A stretch of DNA of 64,000 nucleotides from assembly GCF_900291975.1 (NCBI RefSeq), contig NZ_OMPN01000001.1, positions 2,232,001 to 2,296,000 of the forward strand, given 5' to 3'. Positions within the stretch are counted from its first letter, which is position 1; each line of letters opens with the position of its first letter. This DNA comes from Agathobaculum massiliense. Lineage in GTDB: Bacteria; Bacillota; Clostridia; Oscillospirales; Butyricicoccaceae. A program made the position numbers and the translations under genes. Shown one piece after another: positions 6,554 to 64,000 of this stretch. Under the pieces are notes generated by a model. That model was not told the origin of the DNA. It saw only the letters and a list, made by a program, of their open reading frames with translations, and searched no databases.

Positions 6554-7501
6554 TCAATACCAATAGCCTGCTTTCCATTTCTGGAGGGCGAGGCTCGCGT
6601 TTTGGTAGCTTACGTCGGAGGTCGGCGTCCCCGCGGGTACACCCAGGATCGCCGCGTCGCGCTGCAGCACATAGCCGTTGGTTTTCCAGCGGCTGAGCGC
6701 CTGCTCAAAGGCCTGCGTCTGTGCGCTGTCCGCCGCGTCGTCCACGCTGAGCTGGTAATTGCGCCAGTTCAGCGTGGGGGTGCCGTTTAAAAAGCCGGTC
6801 AGACCGGCAACCGACAGGCTGTAATCCCGATCCGCGTTGAACTGCGCGAGCTGCGCCTGTGCCTGGGAGAGCGCGGCGCTTTCCGCAGCGGCATAGTAGT
6901 CGATTTCGAGCGCGGCTTCCTGCCCGGCGGCGCTGTCCTGCGCGGCCGCGCGCGCCTTGAGACGCGCCTGCCCCAGCGCGTTGAGATCGCTGCGGTACTG
7001 GTTGTCGATCGAAATACGGCTGGTTTCGGCCGCACCCGAAGTAGCGGCGGAGTCCCGCGCGCCCATGTTTAAGCCGAGCGCGGCCAGCTTTTCTTCGTTG
7101 GAGAGTACGGATTGCCGCGCGTTGATATCGGTCTGCGCCATGCCGGCCGTATAGTCGCTCTCGATCGAAGCCAGATTTCGTTCAAGCTGCTGCGCGATGC
7201 GCTCGCGTGCGGCTTCAAAGCGTTTCAGTCGGGCCTGTTCGGCGGCTTCATAAAGCCGGTTGAGCGCGCTGGCGCCGGCAGAGGCGCCGCCCCCGCCTCC
7301 GCTGCTGCCGGACGAAACCGAATAGGGGCGGTAGTCCCCGTTCCAGGTCGATACCGCTTCGTTGGATGCGACCTTGCCCGCCAGCCCTTCCGTATCAATC
7401 TTGTTCTGGCGTTCGGCGAGCAGCTCCTGACGTTTGCCCGCGTCCTGTGTATTTGCGATAGCCTCCGAGTAGTCAAAATCCTCTTTGTAGTTTTTCGCCA
7501 T
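6554..7501 (-). CDS. phage virion-associated protein, Ala-rich, coiled coil
   Basis: A 315-residue protein and last gene of the head operon. It has a Gly/Ser linker near residues 65-75, then a long Ala/Gln/Glu-rich helical stretch (about 80-225) that looks like coiled coil. The compact C-terminus is Trp/Tyr-containing and ends KWKAGYWY. No signal peptide or membrane segment is seen. Position after the tail-tube-like gene suggests an internal or tail-end virion protein, but no family was recognised. It begins 17 bp after the upstream gene and ends just before the shared terminator. Confidence 0.65.
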   Translation of the reverse strand: MAKNYKEDFDYSEAIANTQDAGKRQELLAERQNKIDTEGLAGKVASNEAVSTWNGDYRPYSVSSGSSGGGGGASAGASALNRLYEAAEQARLKRFEAARERIAQQLERNLASIESDYTAGMAQTDINARQSVLSNEEKLAALGLNMGARDSAATSGAAETSRISIDNQYRSDLNALGQARLKARAAAQDSAAGQEAALEIDYYAAAESAALSQAQAQLAQFNADRDYSLSVAGLTGFLNGTPTLNWRNYQLSVDDAADSAQTQAFEQALSRWKTNGYVLQRDAAILGVPAGTPTSDVSYQNASLALQKWKAGYWY

Positions 7502-7517
7502 ATGTTTCCCTCCTTTC

Positions 7518-9338
7518 TCAGATCACGGTCTGCCCCTGCGTCCAGCGGATCGTGAGCGCGAGCAGGCCGAACGGCTCGTCCGGCCGGTCGTTGCCGATGC
7601 GCACCGCGAACAGCGGCATGCGGTGCTGCCGGCGGCGGGTGCGGTAGCTGACCGCGCCAGGGATGCAGCGGAACGAGAACCGCGAAAAATCCAGCGTTTT
7701 GAACGAAAACAGGTCCATGTTGCGCGAAAGCGCGAGCAGCGCGCCATTCTCGTTTTCATACTGTACGGTCGCGCCCGACCGTGAGTAGGGCATGAGCGTC
7801 GGGATGACATCGCGCACGGTTTTGACCCGCCCCCAGTCCGCGAGCGGCAAGGTGGGCGTGCGCCAGTATGCGTCGATCGCCGCGTCATCGTCACAGTAGG
7901 CGCCATCCTCGTCGGCGCGGGCGAAGCGGCACAGCCGGCCGTCCGCGGTGCCAAACCAAAGCCGACCGTCCAGCACGGCAAGGCATTGGGCGGGGACCTC
8001 GGTCCAGTAAAACCATGCGGGGTCGCCGTTCTCCTCGGTCAGCGTACTGTCCGCGATATACATATGCCCATTCACGGCAAGGTAATATTTTCCTTCGAAC
8101 ACGGCCGCGCAGGCGTTCTCCAATCCGGCTTCCGTCTCCAGCTTGGGTACGATCGCGTCCGATACCGAGCGGATGGTCCGCTGCTCCGCGACCGCAGTGC
8201 CGAACGCGCCCTGCACCCCGCGCGCGGACAGGAACAGCGGCAGATCGCCCAGCGTGGCGAAGCTGCGCGGCGCGGTCGCGCCCGCGCCCTGCGCCCCCTG
8301 CTTGAGCGGATAAAGCGCCGTCCCGTCGTCCGCCATCAAGTAGGAGCGCAGATAGCTGGTCGCCTCCTGCGCGCCGCCGGACTTGATGACGAGCTGGCTC
8401 TCATACTGCTTGAGATAGCCTACAATCGCGGACGCGTCCGTCCCCATGCGGGTGTAGCCGGTATCGGGGAAATAGGTGGGATCATACAGCCCGCTCTGCC
8501 AATCACAGTCCGGCTCGTCCGGATTGCCGGCAACGAACGCGCGCGTATCGTTTTTGCCGCCGTACAGTCCGGCAAACCGGCACTGGTTGATTTTATCCGC
8601 ATAGCCGGTCACGGTTTTGGAGAACGTGATGGATACGTTGGCCAGCCCGTTGGCGTTTGCGGGCGCGCTGGCCAATGTGATCAGGCCGGTCGTGCGGTTG
8701 ACCGAGGACACGGTCACGGATGCGCCGTTTACCGCTGCGGTTACCTCGGTGTCGTCCAGATTTTTTGCGTCCACCTGGAACTGGGTCGCCGAGCCGTTGC
8801 CAATGAAGGTGTTGATGCGTTTGGGGGTGAGCAAGTTAACTGCTTCATAGCTGGTGCCGCCGCCGGTCGGCTGCGCGGAGATCGTGGTGGTCGGAACATA
8901 GGCGACGTCTTGTACCTTGACAGCCTCCCACGCGGTTCCGGCGCTGTTTTTGCGCACCGCGCGGTAGGTCTGTCCATCAAGTAAGTATAATACGCCGTTC
9001 ATCACGAACGATTGCGAGAACGCCTCGTTCATGTCCGTGCACAGCTCGGCCTGCGTACCCGTGGCGGGACGGGCGTACAGCTTGGTACCCGCATGCACGG
9101 CCAGGCCGGATCCGTCGGGCAGGGGGAACAGGCCGAAAAGAGGCGCGTTGTAGTTTTGCTGGGTTTTCCAGCCAGTGCGCTTGACCAGGAAATCGTTCTG
9201 GTCGCAGATCAGGTTCTGCAGGTCGGGCGAGCGGGACAGGGATACCTTGGTGGGGTGCGTGCGAAAGTCCGCGCCGCCGAAACGGCTGACCACGGTTTCG
9301 CGCTCGGTCTCGGGATAAGGAAACTGGTAAGCGCGCAT
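7518..9338 (-). CDS. phage structural protein, tail-tube or stabilisation-like
   Basis: A 606-residue protein whose ATG overlaps the stop codon of the connector gene (TGATG), indicating translational coupling. The N-terminus has a VSRFGGADFRTHPTKVSLSR segment, then SPDLQNLICDQ and VKRTGWKTQ. This resembles podovirus-type proteins that describe an ordered set of beta-propeller or tail-nozzle strands (tail tubular protein B-like). Beta-rich throughout, no membrane segment. The specific role is inferred from order and this N-terminal pattern. Could also be a minor head protein. Confidence 0.6.
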   Translation of the reverse strand: MRAYQFPYPETERETVVSRFGGADFRTHPTKVSLSRSPDLQNLICDQNDFLVKRTGWKTQQNYNAPLFGLFPLPDGSGLAVHAGTKLYARPATGTQAELCTDMNEAFSQSFVMNGVLYLLDGQTYRAVRKNSAGTAWEAVKVQDVAYVPTTTISAQPTGGGTSYEAVNLLTPKRINTFIGNGSATQFQVDAKNLDDTEVTAAVNGASVTVSSVNRTTGLITLASAPANANGLANVSITFSKTVTGYADKINQCRFAGLYGGKNDTRAFVAGNPDEPDCDWQSGLYDPTYFPDTGYTRMGTDASAIVGYLKQYESQLVIKSGGAQEATSYLRSYLMADDGTALYPLKQGAQGAGATAPRSFATLGDLPLFLSARGVQGAFGTAVAEQRTIRSVSDAIVPKLETEAGLENACAAVFEGKYYLAVNGHMYIADSTLTEENGDPAWFYWTEVPAQCLAVLDGRLWFGTADGRLCRFARADEDGAYCDDDAAIDAYWRTPTLPLADWGRVKTVRDVIPTLMPYSRSGATVQYENENGALLALSRNMDLFSFKTLDFSRFSFRCIPGAVSYRTRRRQHRMPLFAVRIGNDRPDEPFGLLALTIRWTQGQTVI

Positions 9339-9706
9339 CAGACCATCTCCTGTATGCCGGTGAACTGCGCCGGACAGTGGCGCAGCAGGCGGTCAGCGTA
9401 TTCCGCGGCCGCCCAGTTGAATTTGGCCTTGTCGTCGTCGGCCACGAGCAGAGCCGCCAGCCCATAGGGGAAGCACTCGCGCGCGAGCCAGTCGCCTGTG
9501 GGGATATCCTCGTCCAACGCGTCCATGCGCGGCGGCGCGGCGTGCGGCTGCTCGGCGCAGAATACCCGCTCCGCGTTGATCTCGCGCAGGCTGTTGACGA
9601 GCAACTGGTTGAGCGCGCCTAGCGCGAACGGTTCGTAATACGCGCCGCTGTCCGGCGTTTCGGAAAGCAAGTTCAGCGCCGCACGGAAGCATTCGGTTCC
9701 GGTCAT
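9338..9706 (-). CDS. phage head-tail connector-like protein
   Basis: A 122-residue, mostly helical protein. The N-terminus has the pattern of head-completion or connector proteins that add to the portal (FRAALNLLSETPDSGAYYEP, with a multi-helix body and LLRHCPAQF near the end). It lies between the capsid gene and the 606-residue tail protein, where connectors normally sit. An AAAAGGAGGAATCTC ribosome site precedes the ATG. Assignment rests on position, size and helical character. Confidence 0.55.
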   Translation of the reverse strand: MTGTECFRAALNLLSETPDSGAYYEPFALGALNQLLVNSLREINAERVFCAEQPHAAPPRMDALDEDIPTGDWLARECFPYGLAALLVADDDKAKFNWAAAEYADRLLRHCPAQFTGIQEMV

Positions 9707-9809
9707 GAGATTCCTCCTTTTGCAATATATGGCTCCCAGCCTGGCACAAAGGCGGATGCCCCGATCTGAAGATTATTTACATGCTGTTTAAACTTGCCAC
9801 TGGCCCCGA

Positions 9810-9818
9810 TGCTATAAT
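9810..9818 (+). promoter_or_regulatory. extended -10 promoter of the internal opposite-strand gene
   Basis: TGCTATAAT forms an extended -10 (TGN-TATAAT). No good -35 lies at 17 bp. It makes the 9856-10137 gene independent of the surrounding minus-strand operon. Confidence 0.6.
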
Positions 9819-9855
9819 ATAAAATAATATGAAGATAGATGGGGGTAAAGGTAAT

Positions 9856-10137
9856 ATGGCATATCTTTTGATCTCCATGCTGACCGTACTGCTTTTGGCG
9901 CTATACCTGCGGCAGCAGACTTTGCAGCAGCAGGTCTACAGGCTGAAAGAGCGACTGGACAGCTTGGCAGATATTACCGGACATGTAGAATACAAATCGG
10001 ATTATATCAGTGAAAAATTACAAAATGAACTGAAACGACTCAAGAAAAGCGGTCAGCCGGTGCAGGCGGTCAAACACCTGCGGGAGCAGACAGGGATGAA
10101 TTTGGTGCAGGCAAAGCAGTTTGTTGATAAGCTTTGA
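9856..10137 (+). CDS. small membrane-anchored protein with ribosomal L7/L12-like C-terminus ('moron')
   Basis: A 93-residue protein encoded opposite to the phage-head operon, between the connector and capsid genes. Residues 2-17 form a membrane segment (LLISMLTVLLLALYL), then comes a helical coiled region (about 18-65). The last 28 residues (GQPVQAVKHLREQTGMNLVQ onward) match the helix-turn-helix of the L7/L12 C-terminal domain, a module that binds translation factors in ribosomes. The ATG at 9856 is chosen over 9829 because GGGGGTAAAGG precedes it and 9829 lies almost at the transcription start. With its own promoter and terminator it looks like a phage moron. Function unknown. Confidence 0.7.
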   Translation: MAYLLISMLTVLLLALYLRQQTLQQQVYRLKERLDSLADITGHVEYKSDYISEKLQNELKRLKKSGQPVQAVKHLREQTGMNLVQAKQFVDKL

Positions 10138-10178
10138 TAGAATATCCGCACTTGTGCCAGGCTGAGAGCCTGTCTCAT

Positions 10179-10205
10179 GCCGCCCTATGGGCGGCCTTTT
10201 TCTTT
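10179..10205 (+). terminator. terminator of the moron gene
   Basis: Perfect stem GCCGCCC-TAT-GGGCGGC followed by CTTTTTCTTT. The T-run exists only on the plus strand, so it stops the small plus-strand gene. It abuts the stop codon of the capsid gene on the other strand. Confidence 0.85.
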
Positions 10206-11244
10206 AGCCCGCCGCCACAGGGGACGGATACTTGCCGGTTTCGACCGCATAGGCGCGGATCTGGCAGCCCTCGTCCGCGGTCAGTGCGGTATCGGCAATA
10301 TAATCCTTGGCCGAATCCGAGTAGCGCGGGTCGGAGCCGTCCAGCGTGTAGCGGATGGCCGCGCCGCTGCCTGCGGTGATCTTGCCCGAGGCGACCACCG
10401 GCGCGTCGGATACCGTATCCGCCGCCACCAGCGCGTATACGCCGCCGCATTTCGCCCCCAGCACATAGGCGTCATAGTAATGGCGGCCTTCGATCAGCGC
10501 GCCGGATACGCCTACCGGATCCTCGTGAACCTTGGCGTCCGCGATCTTATAGGGCATAAGCACCGCGTCCTTGTGCGCGACGAGGAAATACACATCCTCG
10601 GGCAGATAGCTCTTGGGTACGCGCACCACATGCATGCCGAACACCTCGCCGCAGACGCCCTTGGCAATGGACTGACGCGCAAGTACGTCCACGCCCGCGA
10701 ACTCGTCCGAGGTGCAGACCAGCTTGTACATCTCGCTTGTCAGGTAGAGATAGCGGTTGTCGTCCGGCACCAGCGCGTCGTCGAGCGCCTGCGACGCGTC
10801 CGCGATCTTGCTGATGATGTCGGCCTTGGTCGGCTTGGCCGCGCTTTCCGCGATCGTGCCAGCCATGGTCACAAAGCGGCGGAAGGCGTATTTGTCCGCG
10901 GCGGGCGTGGACTTTTCGTTCAGCTGCAGACGCAGCATGTCGGCCGCATTTTTGACCAGATTCTGGTCGAGGTTGTTGCCCTTGTCAATGGTGAGCGTGA
11001 ATGCCTTGTCCTGCGTCATGGTCAGTTCCTGCACCACGTCCTGCATCTCGGCCACGTCGCCGTAGCGGGCAAGGCCGCCGTCGCGGTCGTAGTCCACCTC
11101 CTCGACCGTGATCGGCGTGTACACCTTGAGCGTCTTGACACCGGTCAGGTCAAAGGTTTCCGCGGTCTTGCCCTTGATGAAGGACGCGCGGGTGAATACC
11201 TCGGCGATCTGGTCGGAATATTTGCTTGCAAGATTGATAGCCAT
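10204..11244 (-). CDS. major capsid protein with C-terminal Ig-like/chitobiase-type domain
   Basis: A 346-residue protein starting MAINLASKYSDQIAEVFTRA, a start typical of HK97-fold capsid proteins without a cleaved prohead part. Features include ITVEEVDYDR, then an LTIDKGNNLDQNLVK helix and YLYLTSEMYKLV. The last ~70 residues (about 280-346) carry an IRYTLDGSDPRYS motif and an IRAYAVETG strand, which match chitobiase/Ig-like C-terminal domains often displayed on phage capsids. The ATG follows a good AGGAGG site. Downstream of the scaffold gene, as usual. Confident as capsid; the surface domain is inferred. Confidence 0.85.
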   Translation of the reverse strand: MAINLASKYSDQIAEVFTRASFIKGKTAETFDLTGVKTLKVYTPITVEEVDYDRDGGLARYGDVAEMQDVVQELTMTQDKAFTLTIDKGNNLDQNLVKNAADMLRLQLNEKSTPAADKYAFRRFVTMAGTIAESAAKPTKADIISKIADASQALDDALVPDDNRYLYLTSEMYKLVCTSDEFAGVDVLARQSIAKGVCGEVFGMHVVRVPKSYLPEDVYFLVAHKDAVLMPYKIADAKVHEDPVGVSGALIEGRHYYDAYVLGAKCGGVYALVAADTVSDAPVVASGKITAGSGAAIRYTLDGSDPRYSDSAKDYIADTALTADEGCQIRAYAVETGKYPSPVAAG

Positions 11245-11275
11245 AAGTATAATACCTCCTGTTTATACGATATGT

Positions 11276-11794
11276 TTATTTCCCCAACAGTGCTAAGGTC
11301 ACGGGATCGACGCCTGCGGGCTCGCCGTCCGACTGTGCCGGACCGACCGCCGCGCGGCGGTTCTTTTGGTTCACCTCCAGCGCCGCCAGCTCGTCCTTGA
11401 GTTCAAGGATCTCCCACTTGCGGTAGGCGGAAACCAGCGAGCCTTCCTGCTGCGCCCATTCCCACACCTGCTGCGGGATGTCCTCGGGCTTGACCTCGGG
11501 ATATTCCTCCACGAACGCCGCATAGATCTGCCCGTTGGGCATACCGTTCGCAGCGCGGTTGCGGCGCACATAGGCGTTCTGTTTGGACAGCCCCAAGCTT
11601 GCCGCATGGATCAGCTCCTCCAGCGTCAGCTCCACGGTTTGCCCGTCTACCGGCACCGGAAAGGTTTGTGCGGCGGGGGGCGCGGACTGCCCAGCGGTAT
11701 CAGGGGAGAATGGGTTGGATGCAACTGCTCCCGTCTCCTGCGGGAGCGGCTGCGCCGGACTGCTGTTAGGTCTGGTCTTGTTCTGCATTTGCAT
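11276..11794 (-). CDS. capsid scaffold-like protein
   Basis: A 172-residue protein with a Pro/Gln/Ala-rich disordered N-terminus (residues 1-45), a short helical body (VELTLEELIHAASLGLSKQ) and a C-terminal coiled region (WEILELKDELAALEVNQKN). These are common traits of phage scaffolding proteins, and the gene lies directly between portal and capsid. Its start lies inside the end of the portal gene (29 bp overlap), so translation is coupled. No sequence-level family match was recognised. Confidence 0.6.
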   Translation of the reverse strand: MQMQNKTRPNSSPAQPLPQETGAVASNPFSPDTAGQSAPPAAQTFPVPVDGQTVELTLEELIHAASLGLSKQNAYVRRNRAANGMPNGQIYAAFVEEYPEVKPEDIPQQVWEWAQQEGSLVSAYRKWEILELKDELAALEVNQKNRRAAVGPAQSDGEPAGVDPVTLALLGK

Positions 11795-13319
11795 TTGCCT
11801 CCTTTTGCTGCTGCCGCTGCATGCGCAGCGCGTGCAGCAGGTCGTGTTTGCCGCGCACCTGATAGTCAGGCACGTTTTCCAGATAAACGAGCGGGTCGGT
11901 GATGACCCCGCTTTCGAGCAGGTGGTCGTTGGTCATGGTCTGCATGGTCTCTGACCAGTAGCTCGCCGCGCCCACGTCCACCTGAAGGCGCATATCCTGC
12001 CCGGCGAGCGTGGAAAAATCGAAAGACTGACGCTGCGGTTCGCCTCCGTCCTCATCCGGCACGACGACCGTGCGTATCCCGTAATGCGCGCCCATCAGGT
12101 CGAGGAAGATGCGCGCCCAGTCCTCGGTGAAGCGGTAGAACTCCATTTTGGTCAGCTCAAGCGGGGCGGCGGTCGCGTTCTGCACCGCGACGATAGCCGA
12201 GGTGTTGTCCGGTTTGACCGTGCCGAGCGCGGCCTCGCTCGCGCCCATCAGCTCGGCGGTGTCGGTCATCATCTGCTTCAGCAGCCCGAGCACCTGGCTG
12301 GAGATATCGGGCGCTTTGAACGCAGCCGCAATCGCGGTGTTCGGGTCGCCGCGCATACCGACCGCCTTGCCCACGTCGTTCGACCACCCGTTCGGGAAGC
12401 GGGTCATGTCGTAGATGATCTTGGGGAAGGCCACCTGCTTGATGCACTGTACATACATCGAGTACAGCTTGTTAATGGCAATCTGGTTGGGGATGGCCTC
12501 GGTCAGCGGACTTTCGCCGTGGCACGAGCCGCGCACACGGTTCCAGCACAGATGGGTCACCGGATAGTAGCGGTAGGGTAGCTCCTTTTCACGCATCACG
12601 GTCGCGGTGCGCGTGGTTTTGCAGAACGCGACGCCGTGCTCGGTCCGGCGCATGTGCAGCAGCACGGTTACGCGGTTGTTTTCGCCGTGCAGGCGGCGCA
12701 GGTGGTCTGCGTCGCCGTCCGGCCGGATGGCCTCGGCTTCGTCTGCGCCCATGCCGTTTTCCCGCACCTCCTTTTTGACCTCGTCCACATCGCGCCGCAT
12801 GGCGAGGATGAGGTAGGGCTGGCGCTGTACCTCGTCGCAGGCAGGGTTGCCGAAGCAGATATTGGTCGAGTCGATCAGCTCTGCCGCGATATCGCCCTTG
12901 ATTGCCTGGCCGGTCTCAAGCGTGGGATCGAAGTGGAGATAGAAGCACGCGTCGCCGTCCACACAGGCGTTTTTGAGCAGCGGCCGTCCGAGCGCCTTGA
13001 CGCCCGACCGCTCGATCGCGGACGCGAACGAGCGCTCCAGGATACGGGCGGTCCGGCGGCCTGCGCTGTCCATGTCGAACGGCTGCGCGCGTACCGCCAC
13101 ATCGTCCGATACCAGCATGGATACGAACAGGTTGACGCAGCGCCGCAGCACATTGAAGATCAGCGGGTCGAGCGACTGGACGCGCAGCCCCTCCCATTGG
13201 CGGCCGAGGTAGAAGGCCTCGTTGCGGCGCACGCGGTCGTACAGGCCGATCGAGCGTTTGTAGTCGCGGTCGCGCTCGTACTTTTGCCAGATCGCAGCAG
13301 GCGAGGGGTCAAACCGCAT
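11766..13319 (-). CDS. phage portal protein
   Basis: A 517-residue protein that would form the 12-mer ring at the capsid vertex through which DNA is pumped. The order right after the terminase and before the scaffold supports this, together with an N-terminal WQKYERDRDYKRSIGLYDRV helix, the RNEAFYLGRQWEGL motif and a long helical core containing LMGASEAALGTVKPDNTSA. The C-terminus is Gln/Asn-rich (QQQKEANANAEQDQT). It overlaps the small upstream membrane gene by 11 bp and the scaffold gene by 29 bp. Confidence 0.85.
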   Translation of the reverse strand: MRFDPSPAAIWQKYERDRDYKRSIGLYDRVRRNEAFYLGRQWEGLRVQSLDPLIFNVLRRCVNLFVSMLVSDDVAVRAQPFDMDSAGRRTARILERSFASAIERSGVKALGRPLLKNACVDGDACFYLHFDPTLETGQAIKGDIAAELIDSTNICFGNPACDEVQRQPYLILAMRRDVDEVKKEVRENGMGADEAEAIRPDGDADHLRRLHGENNRVTVLLHMRRTEHGVAFCKTTRTATVMREKELPYRYYPVTHLCWNRVRGSCHGESPLTEAIPNQIAINKLYSMYVQCIKQVAFPKIIYDMTRFPNGWSNDVGKAVGMRGDPNTAIAAAFKAPDISSQVLGLLKQMMTDTAELMGASEAALGTVKPDNTSAIVAVQNATAAPLELTKMEFYRFTEDWARIFLDLMGAHYGIRTVVVPDEDGGEPQRQSFDFSTLAGQDMRLQVDVGAASYWSETMQTMTNDHLLESGVITDPLVYLENVPDYQVRGKHDLLHALRMQRQQQKEANANAEQDQT

Positions 13320-13518
13320 GGTCGTCCTCCTCCCGTCCGTAGGCCATCAGCGCGGCCAGGTCGCGGCTGAGTGCGTCTCCGGCCGTGTCCGGCGCATCGC
13401 CGCTGCGGCCGCGCCCGCCCTCCCGCCAGAGCGGGGTGGGCAGCGTCAGCCCGCCGGATATGACCGCGCCGGTCAGCACCAGCAGGGCGGCGCCGATGCA
13501 GTAGCATAATAGTTCCAT
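13309..13518 (-). CDS. small single-span membrane protein in head operon
   Basis: A 69-residue protein. Residues 5-24 are hydrophobic (CYCIGAALLVLTGAVISGG) and form one membrane helix. The rest is polar and Gly/Arg/Asp-rich and ends with LAALMAYGREEDD. The ATG at 13518 is preceded by AGGAGGACACT, a strong ribosome site, so longer forms from upstream are rejected. It sits between the terminase and portal genes and overlaps the portal start. Function unknown; a holin role is possible in principle but nothing specific supports it. Confidence 0.6.
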   Translation of the reverse strand: MELLCYCIGAALLVLTGAVISGGLTLPTPLWREGGRGRSGDAPDTAGDALSRDLAALMAYGREEDDHAV

Positions 13519-13564
13519 AGTGTCCTCCTTTTCTGGAATGGGGACGGTGATTCCCCATTTTGGC

Positions 13565-14875
13565 TCAGTACCGCAAAAACTCTCCCACCTCGCAGTCATA
13601 CAGGGTCGGCGGCGCGGGCTGGGACGGCTCGTACACGGTCGCTGCATAGCCGCGCAGCGCGTCCGGCGCGTGGGTCAGTTCGTGCGGCGTGTTCGCCGTG
13701 TCGGACGGATTGCGCTTGTCGTGCTGCAGGGCGGGCAGGGTGCGGATCAGGTTGCGGCAGGTGTCGAAGATGGTCAGGCGGGGGCGCATCCCACCCTGCG
13801 CGTCCCGACGCGGGGCGAGCAGCTCGTGCAGCGCCAGCCAGCCGGCGACGCGCTCGTTGCTGCTTTTGTCGAAGTCCAGCCCGCAGTCCGCGAACAGCTC
13901 CACCGCACTTTTGCCGGTCTCCTGCCGCCGGTTCCACAGGTCGGGCGGAGCCAGCCGGCAGTCGATGCGTTCGCCCGCCGGCTCGCAGTCCAGAATGGCC
14001 GCCGCCGCTTCTGAGATAATCAAACCAGATTGATATAACTCTCTGTATACTATGCTGTATCCATCCGGACTTTGTGCGATCCACAGCGCGGCGAGCATAT
14101 CCAGCCCGTAGTCGATCGTCAGATAACGCCGCCAGCTCTTGGGGATGGGGTGCGGCGGCGTGACGTGCCGCTCGGCGGAAAACTCGCTGAAATACCGCCC
14201 CTCGTCCAGCTCCCACGCTCCGTCGAGCAGCGCCCTGCGGTCGTACGGGGCGAGCAGCCGCAGCCGTTTTTCATATCCCGCGTCCGCCTGCTGCAGAAAT
14301 GGGTTGTCCGCCAGTCGCGCAGGCAGGAACAGTCGCGTGCCGCCATCGCATTCGCACACGGTGTCGGGCGGCATGGGGTCGATGTACCGCGCCTTGACCC
14401 AGTGATGCCCCACGCCACCCGGGTTGGTGGTGGATTTGATCTGCTTGGGATAGCCGTTCGCGCCCCGCACGCGGGAGATCAGGTAGGTGAACTGGCTTTC
14501 CGTGAAGTGGGTCAGCTCGTCGAAGCGGATCACATCGTACTCGGCGGACTGATAACGGGTCACGTCGTTCTCTGCATCGCAGTAGCCGAATTCCAGAACT
14601 GAGCCGTTAACGAACTGCCACAGGTGCTCGCTCACCTTGTAGGACGCGACCGCCTGCGGGAACAGCCGCAGCGACGCAGGCACGAGCGAGCGGTCCAGCT
14701 CGGGCAGGGTGCGCCGCAGCATGAGCTGCCGCGAGGCCGGATACTGCACCGCGAACCGCAATGCGTCCAAAAGCTGGCCGTGGCTTTTGCCGCCGCCTGC
14801 CGCGCCGCCGAACAGCGTTTCAAATGCCTCCGAGCGGATGAACGCCGCCTGCCGCGGGGTTACTTCGTATTCGAT
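13565..14875 (-). CDS. phage terminase large subunit
   Basis: DNA-packaging motor ATPase and nuclease. Walker A is FGGAAGGGKS with Lys30, counting from the ATC at 14875. Walker B is IRFDELTHF (Asp119-Glu120), followed by a coupling motif KSTTNPGG and an RNase-H-like nuclease core beginning YLTIDYGLD. The 436 residues counted this way are normal for the family. The frame contains no ATG, GTG or TTG before the conserved region except far upstream in Arg-rich shadow sequence, so ATC at 14875 is only a proposed start. It overlaps the small subunit gene by 16 bp. Confidence 0.88.
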   Translation of the reverse strand: MEYEVTPRQAAFIRSEAFETLFGGAAGGGKSHGQLLDALRFAVQYPASRQLMLRRTLPELDRSLVPASLRLFPQAVASYKVSEHLWQFVNGSVLEFGYCDAENDVTRYQSAEYDVIRFDELTHFTESQFTYLISRVRGANGYPKQIKSTTNPGGVGHHWVKARYIDPMPPDTVCECDGGTRLFLPARLADNPFLQQADAGYEKRLRLLAPYDRRALLDGAWELDEGRYFSEFSAERHVTPPHPIPKSWRRYLTIDYGLDMLAALWIAQSPDGYSIVYRELYQSGLIISEAAAAILDCEPAGERIDCRLAPPDLWNRRQETGKSAVELFADCGLDFDKSSNERVAGWLALHELLAPRRDAQGGMRPRLTIFDTCRNLIRTLPALQHDKRNPSDTANTPHELTHAPDALRGYAATVYEPSQPAPPTLYDCEVGEFLRY

Positions 14876-15075
14876 CGCACGTCCACGATTTGGAACACGA
14901 TCTCGACCGGCGCGGGCGGTTCGGCCTCCGCACCGTCCAGCAGCACTCCCTTGCCGACCGTCCGGTCGAGAATCTCGCGGATCGCGGTCAGACGGCTGTT
15001 CGCGGGCGCTTCCGCGTCGTCCGCGATCTCGTACAGCATCCGGATCAGCTCGTCCGGATGGTTCTTTTTTCGCAC
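14860..15075 (-). CDS. terminase small subunit-like protein
   Basis: A 71-residue protein starting GTG at 15075, with AAAGGAGG 10 nt upstream. It has a short Lys-rich N-terminus, an ELIRMLYEIADDAEAPANSR helix and a second helix LTAIREILDRTVGKGV. This fits the helix-turn-helix DNA-recognition fold of small terminases, which mark DNA for packaging. It is the first gene after the SOS-controlled promoter and directly precedes the large subunit. The short length and lack of a recognisable oligomerisation core leave some doubt. Confidence 0.6.
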   Translation of the reverse strand: MRKKNHPDELIRMLYEIADDAEAPANSRLTAIREILDRTVGKGVLLDGAEAEPPAPVEIVFQIVDVRSNTK

Positions 15076-15126: not shown

Positions 15127-15155
15127 AGAATAGGAGAATCCTCCGCAAAAGTCAA
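15127..15155 (-). promoter_or_regulatory. promoter of the phage-head operon
   Basis: On the minus strand: TTGACT (15150-15155), a 17-bp spacer and TATTCT (15127-15132). The leader is about 45 nt to the terS GTG. It is the only good promoter seen for the eight-gene operon. Confidence 0.75.
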
Positions 15156-15167
15156 GAACAAATGTTC
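15156..15167. promoter_or_regulatory. LexA (SOS) box abutting the phage-head promoter
   Basis: The palindrome GAACAAATGTTC matches the Firmicutes LexA core GAAC-RNRY-GTTC, with G after it on the right flank. It directly touches the -35 hexamer of the head-operon promoter, a usual position for repression. It lies about 140 bp from the uppP promoter on the other strand, so it probably controls only the phage module. Confidence 0.7.
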
Positions 15168-15304
15168 GGTTTTGCGAGGCGTGAAAAAAATAACCCTTTT
15201 GCGGGCGTGGCGGCGGAAAGCGGAGCAGCCCTTGCGCAAAGGCGGCGGGCCTGCGAATACACGGCGGTATTTTGCTAAATTTGGTGGTATCTGACACGGA
15301 GATA

Positions 15305-58662: not shown

Positions 58663-58839
58663 TCTTATCCTGAACCTGTCCATTCTGGGCCAGAGTCAAA
58701 ATTTCCGGTGGCTTGGTTTTCTGTGTCCTTTTTGCCGCACCTAAAAATAGCGGTTCATTTCAATTCGGTTCTTGACATTCGTGCCCATATAGAATCAACA
58801 GGTGCTGCCTGCTTTAACTTTTTCGTGCTCATTTGCTTA

Positions 58840-59632
58840 ACTTTCTATTTAACAAACACAGTATATGGCGGGGCAAATACAACTGGCGAAGTATTAGCGG
58901 CAAATGCAGATAAAAATAAAGTCGTCTTTGTATGGTCATCAAACAGTTTAGAAAGTTCTGCAACCGTCATTAATGGAACAGCCGAAACAACCATTAAAAA
59001 TGCTGAATATGCTTCGGGCATACATCGCTGTTACTGATAATAAAGTTCTTATCGCATACGCCAATAATAATAATTCCTTCTATGGCACAACCACCATCCT
59101 TGAAGTATTCGGCAACCAAATCGCAGGCTCGTTCCTGAACAACTCCAAAGACGCAATAGCCCTTGAATCCGGCGAGGACGGCGAAACCATCAAAACCGGC
59201 TTTGGCGGGTACTGCACATGCGAGGGCATAACCGCAGGACAGATGATCGATTCAGAGGGAGTAACAGCGTATAGCCCGCTGGATGAGTGGCTGGAAATCA
59301 AAGACCCGTGGGCGAGAGGGTATGTGACGGGAGAATATACAGGCGACGGTACAACAAAAGCAACTATTGATGTAGGATTTAAGCCCGCGATGGTTGCGAT
59401 TTATAGCGCTTATAACGAAACTTCGGATTTGGCTAAATTGTCCCAATTCGTGATTTTCCCAGAGCAAACAGCAATTCGATCACCGTTTAGTGCGAGCGTT
59501 AGCTATTCGATTAGTTTGGCCTGGTCTGATACAGGCGTTACTCTTACTGGCACACTCAATGGCACTACGATGCCAAATGCAAACGAAAAGCTATACAAAT
59601 ACATTGCAATGAAGAAATGGGGTGTTGAATGA
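58840..59632 (+). pseudogene. phage tail fibre-like gene, frameshifted
   Basis: Two overlapping frames form one decayed gene. The first part (VYGGANTTGEVLAANADKNK and ATVINGTAETTIKNAEY) ends at a stop near 59037. The second (AVTDNKVLIAYANNNNSFYG and GYCTCEGITAGQMIDSEGVT) continues in another frame to GVE at 59632. The Thr/Asn-rich, beta-repeat composition is that of phage tail fibres or baseplate proteins, and the holin genes follow. The 5' part was removed at the IS110 junction. Confidence 0.6.
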
Positions 59633-59899
59633 TGCTCATTGTAAATGAAGTTACCAGACAGATGCGCACCCTCCACCACGGACAAGCACCGAATGGGTGG
59701 CTGTCCCTGTCAGTCTTGAACCCTGTGCGCGTATTACTGCCCGTACTGCGAGTTGGCGATTGAGGACGGCGCGCTGGTGGATATTACGCCGACCGCCCGA
59801 CCTCCTGAACCGGAGCCGGAACCGACGCAGGAAGAGCAACTCCGCGCGGACGTGGATTTTATCGCGGCTATGACGGGGTGGAGCTATGACAGTATTTGA
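59633..59899 (+). pseudogene. small phage tail-end gene, frameshifted
   Basis: The first frame (MLIVNEVTRQMRTLHHGQAP onwards) stops near 59763. Another frame contains YYCPYCELAIEDGALVD, then PPEPEPEPTQEEQLRADVDF and IAAMTGWSYDS to 59899. Together they resemble a short phage protein with a CPYC motif and a Pro/Glu-rich linker that often precedes holins. A single frameshift separates the halves. The next 190 bp carry a peptide-sized open frame (MMYKNLLIENGFLQG) of no assigned function. Confidence 0.5.
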
Positions 59900-60089
59900 A
59901 ATGGCGTGACAATATAAAAACACAGGCGAAAGCTGAAAAGGAAAGTATGATGTACAAGAACCTGCTGATTGAAAACGGGTTCCTGCAGGGCTGACCAGGA
60001 AGGAGGTGACGGGGCGGGTCAAACCGCCCCACTTGCCTATGGAAAACCAATGAACAAACAATCCGCACGAGTGCATCACGCTTGCCCGC

Positions 60090-60350
60090 GTGGAAGCGTT
60101 GGAAAAGCGGATGGACAGGGCGGGCGACACGCACAAGGAGTTCTTTGACCGTATCCGCGCATTGGAGCAGGACAGCGCGGTACAGGAGGAACGGTATAAC
60201 ACCATTATTGAGAAACTGGATAGCCTGACCGCTACCGTCGCGGAGGTTACAAGTAAGCCTGCAAGACGGTGGGAAAGCATTGTGGACAAGTCGGTACGGG
60301 CAGTTCTGGCGGCAGTAATCGCATTCCTGCTTGCAAGAATTGGACTTTGA
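60090..60350 (+). CDS. XhlA-like haemolysin/holin accessory protein
   Basis: An 86-residue protein. A coiled coil covers residues 1-55 (FDRIRALEQDSAVQEERYNT), followed by a C-terminal membrane helix (AVLAAVIAFLLARIGL). This is the usual layout of XhlA, which works with a holin and sits in the lysis cassette of Gram-positive phages. GTG at 60090 is the first start in frame but lacks a ribosome site, so the N-terminus is uncertain and may be truncated. Confidence 0.65.
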   Translation: MEALEKRMDRAGDTHKEFFDRIRALEQDSAVQEERYNTIIEKLDSLTATVAEVTSKPARRWESIVDKSVRAVLAAVIAFLLARIGL

Positions 60351-60363
60351 AAGGAGCGTACTT

Positions 60364-60627
60364 ATGGAAAGTTTGGGATTTACGGCGATTCCGGCAATCA
60401 TGGTAATTTGCTATCTGATCGCACAGACCGTAAAGGCTACGGCGCTTGACAACAAGTGGCTGCCGATTATCTGCGGCATTTCCGGCGCGGTGCTGGGAAT
60501 TGCAGCGATGCGGATTATGCCGGAGTATGGCGCAAACGACCCGCTGACGGCAATTGCAATCGGCATTGTGTCCGGCCTTGCGGCGACGGGTGTAAACCAG
60601 ATTGTCAAACAGCTCGGACAGAAATAA
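60364..60627 (+). CDS. phage holin
   Basis: An 87-residue membrane protein with three hydrophobic stretches (ITAIPAIMVICYLIAQ-like start, LPIICGISGAVLGIAAM, IAIGIVSGLAATGVNQIV), the pattern of clostridial phage holins. The ATG at 60364 follows GAAAGGAGCGTACTT. No endolysin follows; the type I toxin locus begins 24 bp later. Confidence 0.78.
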   Translation: MESLGFTAIPAIMVICYLIAQTVKATALDNKWLPIICGISGAVLGIAAMRIMPEYGANDPLTAIAIGIVSGLAATGVNQIVKQLGQK

Positions 60628-60650
60628 AAAAGCCGCCCGATGGCGGCAAA

Positions 60651-60680
60651 TTGACATAGCGCGGCGTGCGATGGTATAAT
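60651..60680 (+). promoter_or_regulatory. promoter of the type I toxin mRNA
   Basis: TTGACA (60651-60656), an 18-bp spacer and TATAAT (60675-60680). Confidence 0.75.
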
Positions 60681-60717
60681 ATGTCGGGCGCTGTCGTTCC
60701 CAGCGGCGGGCGGTTGG

Positions 60718-60742
60718 CCACTCTCCTGTAAAAGGGAGGTGG
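60718..60742 (+). promoter_or_regulatory. hairpin hiding the toxin ribosome site
   Basis: CCAC-T-CTCC pairs with GGAG-GTGG, closing over the GGGAGGTGG ribosome site. Such structures hold type I toxin mRNAs in an untranslated form. Confidence 0.6.
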
Positions 60743-60747
60743 TGCTT

Positions 60748-60822
60748 ATGGGCATAAAACTCTTCCGAGTTTTGATATGTGCAATCTTATTGCTACATAT
60801 TTTGACCATAAACGCGAAATAA
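60748..60822 (+). CDS. type I toxin peptide (Hol_Tox/Fst-like)
   Basis: A 24-residue hydrophobic peptide starting MGIKLFRVLICAILLLHILT, one membrane helix with basic ends. The strong ribosome site with its hairpin, long 5' leader and overlapping antisense promoter match Gram-positive type I toxin-antitoxin loci, often found next to phage lysis genes. Too short for normal gene finding. Expected to depolarise membranes when over-produced. Confidence 0.72.
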   Translation: MGIKLFRVLICAILLLHILTINAK

Positions 60823-60902
60823 CCGCCCCATCGACCAAAATGTAGCGGTTATTTCATAACTTCCTCATTCAGGGTCAACCGCTCGTCGGCAACGCCCCTT
60901 TT
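60815..60902 (-). ncRNA. antisense RNA antitoxin of the type I toxin
   Basis: Predicted transcript from the minus promoter at 60909-60936 to about 60815. It contains a long AAATAACCGC/GCGGTTATTT stem at its end. It is complementary to the 3' half of the toxin mRNA, which runs on to the terminator at 60919-60950. Boundaries are estimates. Confidence 0.6.
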
Positions 60903-60908
60903 ATAGAT

Positions 60909-60936
60909 ATTATACCATAAGCCCCGCCAGTGTCAA
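60909..60936 (-). promoter_or_regulatory. promoter of the antisense RNA
   Basis: On the minus strand: TTGACA (60931-60936), a 16-bp spacer and TATAAT (60909-60914). The -35 lies inside the toxin terminator stem-loop. Confidence 0.72.
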
Positions 60937-60950
60937 GGTGGGGCTTTTTA
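60919..60950 (+). terminator. terminator of the toxin mRNA
   Basis: Stem AAGCCCCGCC / GGTGGGGCTT (10 bp with one G.U pair), then TTTTTA. Confidence 0.85.
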
Positions 60951-60957
60951 TTGTACA

Positions 60958-63900
60958 TTGAAACTGAGGGGGAGCGGCACGGGCAGAACGAGCGGAGGGT
61001 TCAGCGGGGGAGGCGGAGCGATTTCCCCGCTGCCCGCGGTTCGGGGGACGACGAGGGCGCAGCGGCAGGCAGATTTGGACCAGCTGACCGCAAACAGCGT
61101 CGCATGGCATTTCGCGGACGACGCGCAGAAACAGGCGCTTTTTGAAGCGAACAACGCAATCCGTCAAAAATACAACCTTGCCTATCTGCCTGGAACTGGC
61201 GAAACCTATAATAACGCCGGCGTGAACCTCTCCGCTCCGGTCGCGGAGGAGGTGCGGACGCAGCAGAGCTATAACGCGCAAACCCCGCTTTCGGTATTAG
61301 GGCATAACACCATGGCGGGCGTTGCGGGAATCAACAGGGGATTTTACTCTACGCTTGATTTCCTGCTTCCGGATGTAATCACGCCGGAATTTGTGCAGGA
61401 CAAGATTGATGCGGCAAAGCAGACGAACGAGGATATTCAGGAAAAGGTGCGCCGGTACAACTACGAGCGCGGCGGGAAAATCGGAGGCGCGATAGGCGAC
61501 CTGTACCAGAGCGCGCTCGGGATGATCCCGCAGGCGGTCATCGCGGTAATGTCGGGCGGCACAAGCGCGGCGGCGCAGGGAGGCAGCACGCTGGCCGGAG
61601 CTGCGGACGACATTGTTTCCAACATCACGCGGCAGCTTACGAAGAACGCGGGATACATGAGCAGCTTTGCGTCCACGGTGGGGACGGACTACGAGAGGGC
61701 GAAAGCGGCCGGAGCATCGGACGCGGAGGCCGCGTTTTCGGCCATCCTCTCTTCGGCCGCTACCGCCGGAATAGAAACCATGGGTGGCATTGACGTTCCG
61801 CAGGGCAGCGCGTCCAGACTGCGGAATGCGCTGAATACAGCGCTTGAGGAGGGCTCCGAGGAAGTCCTGCAGGACCTGGCACAGTCGATTGTTGAGAAAG
61901 GGACGTACAGTCCGGACAAGGCATGGGCGGGAGAAAACGGCGTGTTTGATCTGGGGCGCGCGCTCCAGAATTTCGGCGCGGGCGCTATCCTTGGCGGCGG
62001 CTTTGGCGCGGTGAGAACGCCGGTGCGCCCGCAAATACAAGGCGCACAAGCCGCGATCCGGCCGAACATCCAGCAGGCACCCGTGGATGCAAGCGCGGCT
62101 CCGGTAAGGGCGGGTAAGGCGACAACGATACAAAGCCCGTACACAGGGAAAATGCCGCAGAACGCCGGCGCGGAAGCGCAGACGCGCCCGCTGCAGATCG
62201 GCAAAGCCGACGTGGAGGGCGCACAGCAGGCGATCTTTGCCAGCCAGCAGGGCGGCACGTTTGCACGGACGATGAAAAGCGTTTTGCAGAACATATTCCA
62301 GCAGAACGGCGGCGCGCGGACGGTAACGGTAAAAGGCGTGACGTTCGACGGACAGCCGTATGATGTAACATTAAATCCGAATATTGCCGGAAAAGTGGCC
62401 TCTGATCCGCGAATGACATCTGAAAAATTGGCCGTTTTCAATATGATAGATCAGTTGGTGGCAAATGGTAAATATGTCGGAAGCGGAAATTATAATAAAA
62501 ACAGGTCAAAAGCAGGGGATGTCACTCGGTACGACTATTTTGAAACGCCATTAACTATCGATAATCAACCTTTTATTACAACTTTTGATGTGGAGGTTCA
62601 TCGAGATAGAAACAATTTCCGAACTTATCGAGTAATAGACGAAATAGACCTGAAACAAGTGGATGCTGTACACCAGTCATTCCCTGGCAGCGGAGTCCAA
62701 ACAAGTTCAGGTCTATCTGATAATAGTATATCCCAAACAAACGGAAATAGCAATACCCCCGCTGCACAAAATGACCCTATCCGTCCCATCATCCAGCCCG
62801 CGCAGGGCGTATCACCTGATTCGTCGGTGGGGGCGGCTGCGGCAAACTTTGACCCATATACCCGCATGGCAAACGAATACGGGACGATAGCGCAGGGCGA
62901 AGCGCCGCGGGCGCGCGAGGTCGATGTTCCCCAATCGACGGACGGGAGCGACCGAGTGCGCCGGTTCGCGCGCACGGCGATGGAGGCGCAGGCCACGCCG
63001 GAGCAGATGATACCGGAGTTTGAAAAGAACGTGGCAAACGGCCTGTTCTCCTACAATCCGCGCAGCGATAAGAGCAGCCTGGACGCTGCGGCGCGCACCA
63101 TCGCCCAAAAAGGCTACGACGGCGCGCTGGCGCAATGGGAGGATGTAACGAGCGGGCGGCGCACGGCGGGAAAGGACGACATTGTTCTGGCGCAGGTGCT
63201 GTATTCCGAAGCGGCGGCGGCAGGCGATACGCGGCTTGCCATGCAGCTTGCGGCAGAGATCGCGGCCGAGGGAACGAGGGCAGGACAGAGCGTGCAGGCG
63301 CTCCGCCTGCTCAAGCGCACCACAAGCGAGGGGAAGCTGTACTACATCCAGAAAGCGGTCAACAACATTCAGGAGGGGCTGAACCAGAAACGGGGCGGCA
63401 AAGCGCCGCAGATCACCATTGACGAAGCGCTTGCACAAGGGCTTCTGGATGCGAAAACAGACGCAGATGCAAACGCGGCGATGGACGCGATATACAACGA
63501 CGTTGCCGCACAGATACCGGCGACCCTTGGGGACCGGCTGAATGCATGGCGGTATTTTGCGATGCTGGGCAACCCGCGCACGCACATCCGAAATGTAGTC
63601 GGGAACATTGTCTATCAAATCCCGACCCGCGCCAGCAACAAGGTCAGCGCAACGCTCCAAAAGGCTTTTGTAAAGGACCCGAACCAGCGCACGCGCTCCC
63701 TGACGCGGAACAGCGCGGCAAAGGAATTTGCGAAAGCGGACTATGCGGAAATGAAAGGCGTGATCTCGGGGGACGCTTATACCTCCGAAATGTCCGAGGT
63801 ACAGCGCAGGCAAAAGATATTCCCCAAGCCCCTGCAGGCGGTAATGGACACGGCAAACAAAGCGCTGGACGTGGAGGATCAGATTTTCAAGCGCATGACC

Positions 63901-64000
63901 TACATCAACAGCATGGCCGATTTTCTGACCGCGCGCGGCATCGACCCGAGCAGGGGGAATGTGCCGGCCGATATTTTGGAGCAGGCGCGGACGCACGCAA
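60958..64000 (+). CDS. phage large polyvalent protein with LPD38-like domain (3' end beyond window)
   Basis: The frame stays open from 60958 to the last base, at least 1014 residues, so the protein is very large. The start is unclear: TTG at 60958 follows the toxin terminator and has no ribosome site, so the 5' end may be lost. Residues about 225-340 are Ala/Gly-rich. A beta-rich domain follows (VTVKGVTFDGQPYDVTLNPN to DLKQVDAVHQS, about 460-570) and then a Ser/Asn linker. MLGNPRTHIRNVVGNIVYQI near residue 873 matches LPD38, found in polyvalent proteins of phages and conjugative elements that carry nuclease or toxin modules. Exact activities are not established. Confidence 0.65.
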   Translation, partial: MKLRGSGTGRTSGGFSGGGGAISPLPAVRGTTRAQRQADLDQLTANSVAWHFADDAQKQALFEANNAIRQKYNLAYLPGTGETYNNAGVNLSAPVAEEVRTQQSYNAQTPLSVLGHNTMAGVAGINRGFYSTLDFLLPDVITPEFVQDKIDAAKQTNEDIQEKVRRYNYERGGKIGGAIGDLYQSALGMIPQAVIAVMSGGTSAAAQGGSTLAGAADDIVSNITRQLTKNAGYMSSFASTVGTDYERAKAAGASDAEAAFSAILSSAATAGIETMGGIDVPQGSASRLRNALNTALEEGSEEVLQDLAQSIVEKGTYSPDKAWAGENGVFDLGRALQNFGAGAILGGGFGAVRTPVRPQIQGAQAAIRPNIQQAPVDASAAPVRAGKATTIQSPYTGKMPQNAGAEAQTRPLQIGKADVEGAQQAIFASQQGGTFARTMKSVLQNIFQQNGGARTVTVKGVTFDGQPYDVTLNPNIAGKVASDPRMTSEKLAVFNMIDQLVANGKYVGSGNYNKNRSKAGDVTRYDYFETPLTIDNQPFITTFDVEVHRDRNNFRTYRVIDEIDLKQVDAVHQSFPGSGVQTSSGLSDNSISQTNGNSNTPAAQNDPIRPIIQPAQGVSPDSSVGAAAANFDPYTRMANEYGTIAQGEAPRAREVDVPQSTDGSDRVRRFARTAMEAQATPEQMIPEFEKNVANGLFSYNPRSDKSSLDAAARTIAQKGYDGALAQWEDVTSGRRTAGKDDIVLAQVLYSEAAAAGDTRLAMQLAAEIAAEGTRAGQSVQALRLLKRTTSEGKLYYIQKAVNNIQEGLNQKRGGKAPQITIDEALAQGLLDAKTDADANAAMDAIYNDVAAQIPATLGDRLNAWRYFAMLGNPRTHIRNVVGNIVYQIPTRASNKVSATLQKAFVKDPNQRTRSLTRNSAAKEFAKADYAEMKGVISGDAYTSEMSEVQRRQKIFPKPLQAVMDTANKALDVEDQIFKRMTYINSMADFLTARGIDPSRGNVPADILEQARTHA

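Follow-up and report, generated by a model that had tools for sequence, protein, structure and literature searches.

A podovirus-type head and packaging operon in Agathobaculum, probably for a particle like a gene transfer agent, and the putative unlinked tail fibre genes that accompany it

Gene transfer agents (GTAs) are known from few lineages. The agent of Rhodobacter capsulatus, RcGTA, is siphovirus-like and is regulated by CtrA and GafA, and PBSX of Bacillus subtilis is a long-tailed killing particle that is not known to inject its DNA. Here we describe an operon of phage head and packaging genes at positions 6554-15075 (minus strand) of a stretch of 64,000 nucleotides from Agathobaculum massiliense (contig NZ_OMPN01000001.1, positions 2,232,001 to 2,296,000; the whole stretch is called the window). 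Its podovirus-type genes and a LexA-type box set it apart from RcGTA, and its podovirus-type genes differ from PBSX in gene set and tail type. SOS-type control and particle genes kept by the host would be common to PBSX and the operon, the control being suggested here by the box in the sequence.

The closest known system is the FpGTA of Faecalibacterium, published in 2026, which is described as the first GTA of the human gut microbiome and as the first one with a podovirus-like shape (PMC12946183). The likeness extends to a podovirus-type operon of about ten genes with a TerS that lacks an obvious DNA-binding domain, TerL, portal, scaffold and capsid, to its presence in all twelve examined genomes of a gut genus, and to fibre and receptor-binding genes that some strains carry at a second locus (PMC12946183). 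S-layer pairing and a LexA box are not among the features described in the sections consulted, and Butyricicoccus, which carries the operon studied here, is unmentioned in the main text (PMC12946183). Within the portions of the literature consulted on GTAs of Agathobaculum or Butyricicoccus, on S-layers and tail fibres of GTAs, and on LexA and GTAs, we found no account of the present system.

We consider it likely that a podovirus was domesticated here, that the operon represents its module for head, packaging and short tail, and that the cell now uses it as a GTA-like particle under SOS control. In the mechanism that we propose, DNA damage would inactivate LexA and thereby free the promoter upstream of terS, capsid, portal and terminase would assemble, and the terminase, being without a sequence-reading domain, would package host DNA non-specifically. 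Short tail fibres from unlinked genes would then join the tail, as their common N-terminus suggests, and would bind recipient cells; in Agathobaculum, Intestinibacillus and genome G044, the S-layer gene that lies tail-to-tail with a fibre gene would encode the cognate receptor.

A preliminary description of this DNA had reported an intact head and packaging operon, and this is confirmed: the genes are of podovirus type, follow the phage packaging order, and all frames are intact. They number nine on the minus strand rather than the eight counted then. The run is not uninterrupted, because a plus-strand open reading frame (ORF) of 102 amino acids (aa) lies between the capsid and adaptor genes. 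The GC content of 0.56-0.69 per kb resembles that of the flanking DNA, as stated earlier. The genes, in the direction of reading, are as follows.

14860-15075, minus strand: terS, 71 aa, GTG start, without the N-terminal helix-turn-helix of related prophage TerS
13565-14863, minus strand: terL, phrog_979 (2.7e-47); no canonical start codon nearby, start position guessed
13309-13518, minus strand: small membrane protein, 69 aa, single span, overlapping the portal start; internal ATG picked in the light of 14 other loci
11766-13319, minus strand: portal, phrog_156 (7.5e-25), P22_portal
11276-11794, minus strand: scaffold-like protein, from position and conservation; best family match phrog_14606 (0.0015), of unknown function
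10204-11244, minus strand: major capsid protein, phrog_422 (3.6e-37); its C-terminal domain is Fn3_assoc
9829-10137, plus strand: 102-aa ORF inside the operon, weakly similar to the L7/L12 C-terminal domain (0.00044, under the Pfam cut-off)
9338-9706, minus strand: head-tail adaptor-like protein, 122 aa, no family match, assigned from position
7518-9338, minus strand: orfH, virion protein, 606 aa, phrog_3287 (6.9e-23)
6554-7501, minus strand: orfI, Ala-rich protein, 315 aa, 27% over 229 aa to a protein of the prophage at locus L060

Clear matches to phage families were obtained for TerL, the portal, the capsid and the 606-aa virion protein, which is probably the short-tail nozzle, and TerS, the scaffold, the adaptor and the Ala-rich protein were placed from position and conservation. 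Family matches of TerS are all weak, one of them being labelled terminase small subunit (0.066). TerL retains Walker A, Walker B and the nuclease motifs DYGLD and HAPDALR, and the portal is present in a single copy in the genome. The prophage relative of the Ala-rich protein at L060 precedes an 800-aa ejection-type protein, which points to a possible role of the Ala-rich protein in ejection. In the ORF lists and among the neighbouring genes, no integrase, repressor, replication or lysis genes were seen beside the operon, lysis genes never having been specifically searched for, and the window contains no tRNA genes. Intact phage head and packaging genes unaccompanied in these lists by mobility or replication genes are a feature of GTAs.

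The operon is not confined to one strain. It is found in 23 of 25 Agathobaculum genomes, that of the window included, with portals 81-100% identical; a portal match as such was obtained in 51 of 99 genomes (its own included) and in 23 of 24 relatives of the same genus, and the operon count is 23 of 25 because the sole portal of genome G011 is a prophage-type copy with 40% identity. Among its carriers in the genus is Agathobaculum butyriciproducens DSM 100391 (L127), and Intestinibacillus and Butyricicoccus also carry the operon. The scan of the relatives' contigs gave at least 588 pattern stretches in at least 47 relatives, in Agathobaculum, Intestinibacillus and Butyricicoccus, but in the last 18 of those relatives (L135-L152) the match does not begin before residue 139 and falls mostly within the C-terminal domain. 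In Agathobaculum, 22 loci were fetched. In 20 of them ftsK and/or uppP adjoin the operon and the contigs of the other two end first, so that these neighbours are present wherever contigs reach; eno lies on the opposite flank in 13 of the 22. In G002, G044 and both Intestinibacillus loci, the gene that comes after the operon is PEPCK-like, as judged by eye, and Butyricicoccus-type loci have other neighbours that are common among themselves. The site is thus stable in the genus, apart from two losses, with surroundings rearranged between genera. Trees of the operon and of rpoB, computed for 21 genomes, have 11 of 18 splits in common (500 label shuffles: mean 0.18, maximum 3), and vertical inheritance at a stable chromosomal site is shown. 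The earlier description had named an integrase and att repeats nearby as signs that would contradict its reading. No integrase gene was seen at the loci, and of 48 repeat families, the 20 largest include no direct repeat that would join the two sides of the operon. We tried G011 and G024, the two genomes of the genus that lack the operon, as clean empty sites and rejected them: HAD and the PEPCK-like gene adjoin each other there, but their orientation is also unlike that in operon carriers.

Furthermore, the genes are maintained. Agathobaculum frames are complete wherever contigs cover them, with nearly constant lengths for TerL (432-434 aa), adaptor (122), orfH (605-607), capsid (340-347) and portal (514-521) and more variable ones for orfI (303-335) and the scaffold (133-182). 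Median ratios of nonsynonymous to synonymous substitution rates (dN/dS) are 0.133 for terL, 0.112 for portal, 0.096 for capsid, 0.196 for adaptor, 0.160 for orfH, 0.228 for orfI, 0.204 for scaffold and 0.331 for terS. These values of 0.10-0.33 lie mostly in the range of the host genes ftsK (0.151) and uppP (0.150), with HAD at 0.153 and gpmI at 0.080, and above eno (0.033) and tpiA (0.035). The structural genes, for which a ratio near 1 had been named as the contrary outcome, are therefore far below 1 and under purifying selection.

Podoviral prophages related to the operon are present in some of the same genomes (L058-L060, L063 and L064). As judged by eye, the three that were read in detail have a serine recombinase, fibre genes and a TerS that is about 160 aa long and includes a helix-turn-helix, whereas the operon TerS of about 70 aa aligns without this part. 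A TerS without the N-terminal DNA-binding domain is a GTA feature (PMC6854486). The suggestion that the genes are selected for the making of particles, as in GTAs, is strengthened by this shortened TerS, and likewise by the conserved LexA-type box, the congruence of the trees and the unlinked fibre genes.

The promoter elements upstream of terS are the following.

15156-15168, minus strand: LexA-type box CGAACATTTGTTC, upstream of terS
15150-15155, minus strand: -35 element TTGACT, abutting the LexA-type box
15127-15132, minus strand: -10 element TATTCT, 17 nt from the -35 element, from sequence and alignment

In an alignment of 20 loci, the box is exact in 13 and has one mismatch in seven; a -35 element TTGACT or TTGACA abuts it in 12, TTGT.. 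is found in seven, and in one the element is shifted. A box of the same class stands upstream of lexA in three of six genomes examined. The 13-mer CGAACATTTGTTC occurs 20 times in ten genomes, compared with no occurrence of the reversed control, and nine of these places are the operon, in nine of the ten genomes; as these genomes were mostly picked for an exact operon box, the nine of ten is biased, and 13 of 20 is the fair count. The box suggests that the operon may be under SOS control by LexA. Six of the 11 places outside the operon were read, and all adjoin a spoIID-like gene (G000:C2:1229355 in the genome of the window and its counterparts; L179, L382-L386). In five of the six (G000, G008, G017, G022 and G021, not G002), the box precedes two genes, one for a small protein (about 80 aa) and one for a protein with sigma-70 region 4, and this locus could encode a regulator of the unlinked fibre genes.

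What is new here is that unlinked short fibre genes co-occur with the operon. Eight sequences, taken from g4-type operons and from related phages and prophages, were combined into a profile of the fibre N-terminus, which had matches in 11 of 16 genomes (not G008, G004, G009, G023 and G045). Some of these are prophage fibres, and others are short genes at a great distance from the operon. In the genome of the window this distance exceeds 0.5 Mb, and the operon-associated fibre genes lie at G000:C2:1.69-1.72 Mb. All ten fibre proteins tested match PHROG 14469 (tail fibre), nine within the first 85 residues and one to residue 117. A family-wide search matched 40 of 87 genomes. In the 72 genomes tested for both fibre and portal, a short fibre gene is present in 27 of 35 operon carriers and in none of 37 non-carriers (Fisher p 5e-13, uncorrected for relatedness). 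Carriers were defined by a portal with at least 59% identity or more than 820 bits to the profile, fibre matches in ORFs above about 350 aa were not counted as short, and G007, with a C-terminal match only, was scored as lacking the gene. The table omits the 15 genomes G419-G433, where the portal was unsearched; of these, G421 and G422 have short fibre genes, and in G419, G423 and G424 the fibre matches fall within ORFs 422-718 aa long.

When Butyricicoccus is set aside, 34 short fibre genes were fetched, and 32 of these lie tail-to-tail with a gene for an SLH-domain (S-layer) protein. They come from 18 genomes of Agathobaculum, Intestinibacillus and a further genus represented by G044, one partner is cut by a contig end, and the count of 34 leaves out six fibre places in G019, G047 and G007. 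The two genes without such a partner belong to G002 and, with 426 aa, to G047. The gap between the partners is 46-95 bp in 30 of 31 cases and 405 bp in one, and there are six pairs in the genome of the window and seven in G044. In Butyricicoccus (genus g10), the fibre gene follows a DEAD-box helicase gene, identified by eye, in eight of ten loci; no strong S-layer neighbour was found at the ten, two of which have weakly SLH-like genes. A precedent for receptors of this kind is given by phages of Clostridioides difficile, which use the S-layer protein SlpA and whose receptor-binding proteins bind an S-layer protein of a Gram-positive host (PMC10100898, PMC9615553). In that case the host encodes the receptor and the phage the fibre, whereas here both genes are neighbours on the chromosome, with the rest of a phage not seen beside them.

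Fibre C-termini and the last 300 residues of the S-layer partners covary in 31 pairs (r 0.565). When partners were shuffled within genomes, which can move only 19 pairs in five genomes, the observed correlation was reached in 4 of 1000 shuffles (in 3 when the last 500 residues were used, in 21 for the last 150), as compared with 203, 702 and 936 of 1000 for combinations with conserved ends. The S-layer protein is a plausible receptor of its fibre, but linkage alone could explain the covariation: the variable 3' ends of the two genes abut between conserved repeats on both sides, and joint exchange would be expected without any binding. That the covariation is such a by-product, or that the pairs belong to another structure, is a serious contender, if short of an even chance; the Butyricicoccus fibre gene, with no strong S-layer neighbour, would agree with this reading. 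Against it stand the fibre N-termini, which match PHROG 14469 and the profile of related phage and prophage fibres, and the fact that the presence of the short fibre gene follows the operon.

With a similar tentativeness, we propose that the operon and the cassettes form a split, SOS-controlled GTA in which fibres and cognate S-layer proteins would let cells that share a cassette exchange DNA, the ligand and the receptor of this kin recognition being genetically linked and several alternative cassettes being present in one genome. Kin recognition through the S-layer is suggested by the sequences, and physical linkage is the alternative cause of the covariation. This possible layer of recognition would be the truly new part of the system. 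Should the pairs prove cognate, the question of who receives GTA DNA would be answered directly at the molecular level, and a receptor and its ligand retained as one cassette could be put to the test. In G018 and G044, a tyrosine recombinase gene lies between or beside the S-layer/fibre cassettes (L315, 8700-9752, PF00589; L321, 2-973), and because of this adjacency switching of cassettes is possible.

The same arrangement could be read as weapon and shield. A PBSX-like particle, with DNA packaged or not, would serve to kill the cells to whose surface it binds, and the adjacent S-layer gene would encode a self-protecting variant rather than a receptor. The LexA-type box at the promoter would agree with such a particle, and the fibre genes adjoining a variable surface gene would fit such a pair. 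We nevertheless regard a killing particle as unlikely, as terminase and portal are under purifying selection with the TerL motifs kept, beyond the needs of pure killing, and TerS is shortened in the manner of GTAs. A decaying prophage remnant, to which the lack of integrase, repressor, replication and lysis genes seen beside the operon, the two operon-free genomes of the genus and single broken loci elsewhere would correspond, and a capsid-bearing satellite or other mobile element moved by a helper phage, which the preliminary description had offered as an alternative and for which the related podoviral prophages in some of the same genomes might speak, are both highly improbable and were rejected on intact frames, dN/dS and synteny, the former also in view of the conserved promoter and the vertical inheritance and the latter in view of the conserved neighbourhood, the tree congruence, the lack of any recombinase seen with the operon and the lack of a flanking direct repeat.

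Several observations weigh against a GTA-like particle under SOS control. Concerning the promoter, the seven loci with a one-mismatch box also have an altered -35 element, the exact box pattern is found in none of six Butyricicoccus-type loci, the class GAACN4GTTC is not enriched genome-wide (50 versus 48 in the control), and the box at lexA is limited to three of six genomes, with a near-match at recA in one of six. Concerning the fibres, eight of 35 carriers have no short fibre gene, four of which are at least 90% complete (G008, G023, G013 and G004), and long prophage-type fibre ORFs are present in seven of 37 non-carriers (G027, G040, G052, G060, G058, G232 and G240). The operon is absent from G011 and G024 of the same genus and from G405 in genus g10, and four conflicts between the operon and rpoB trees concern splits with support of at least 0.95. 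The capsid frame is split in Intestinibacillus (L130) and a recombinase-like ORF interrupts the capsid gene of a Butyricicoccus-type locus (L133), and therefore some lineages lose the operon. Gene names in the related prophages rest on reading translations by eye. Finally, holin and endolysin genes of the system were not identified, no search having been aimed at them. FpGTA II has baseplate, holin and endolysin genes (PMC12946183), and no such locus was identified here, where lysis genes were not searched for.

As to the relation with FpGTA, a portal profile matched 129 of 396 genomes of the order at 1e-20, and an anatomy like that of FpGTA recurs in 14 fetched loci of family f19, one of which (L271) ends inside the operon. 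In a midpoint-rooted tree of TerL plus portal with 38 sequences (six of 44 were omitted, as TerL was not in the stretch), a single clade with support 1.0 unites the operons of Agathobaculum, Intestinibacillus, G044 and Butyricicoccus, and this clade nests with phages, prophages and g4 operons (1.0; 0.65 for TerL alone). The f19 and f20 operons form a separate clade (1.0), and because of this the operon type of the window and FpGTA probably represent separate domestications, if f19 is, as we suspect, the Faecalibacterium family. With another podovirus-type lineage now seen in a neighbouring family, it seems that the same phage group has been domesticated repeatedly. Among phage records, the portal had 14 matches with 27-29% identity, to 13 Bacillus phages and one unannotated faecal contig. 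Families f19, f16 and f20 (L269-L288) have similar operons with conserved or shuffled gene order, and four of the f16 loci showed no TerL next to the portal. Related operons are also carried by loci L053, L055 and L057 of genus g4; L057, examined in detail, has a 1080-aa fibre, a 135-aa TerS with a helix-turn-helix-like part, and host genes on both sides, and the g4 operon is possibly a further stage of domestication.

A degenerate-looking prophage with XhlA-like and holin-like ORFs, recognised by eye, occupies positions 58700-64000 of the window. It contains a fibre C-terminal domain whose type is also that of the cassette fibres (G000:C2:2291324-2291614, 1.4e-8), and beyond this no link with the operon was seen, in line with the earlier statement. 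As a second locus of the system it was rejected, given its degenerate appearance in the ORF list and the position of the operon-associated fibres at 1.69-1.72 Mb.

Some smaller features of the operon recur among its relatives. The terS stop overlaps a GTA codon (GTAA) at the beginning of terL (window 14860-14863). Of 18 Agathobaculum loci, 15 lack ATG, GTG and TTG around the beginning of TerL, and the codon that the TerS stop overlaps in these is ATA or GTA; in two others it is GTG. This suggests that translation is coupled and starts in an unusual way, or that a frameshift takes place. The small membrane protein is genuine: in 19 of 19 loci a frame with one hydrophobic span terminates at the portal gene or slightly within it. 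The protein has 63-65 aa in 14 of these, and in the other five, the window included, the open frame starts further upstream and an internal ATG was assumed. The plus-strand L7/L12-like ORF recurs in four further genomes (L028, L038, L039, L112 and L117, of which L117 and L038 are one contig).

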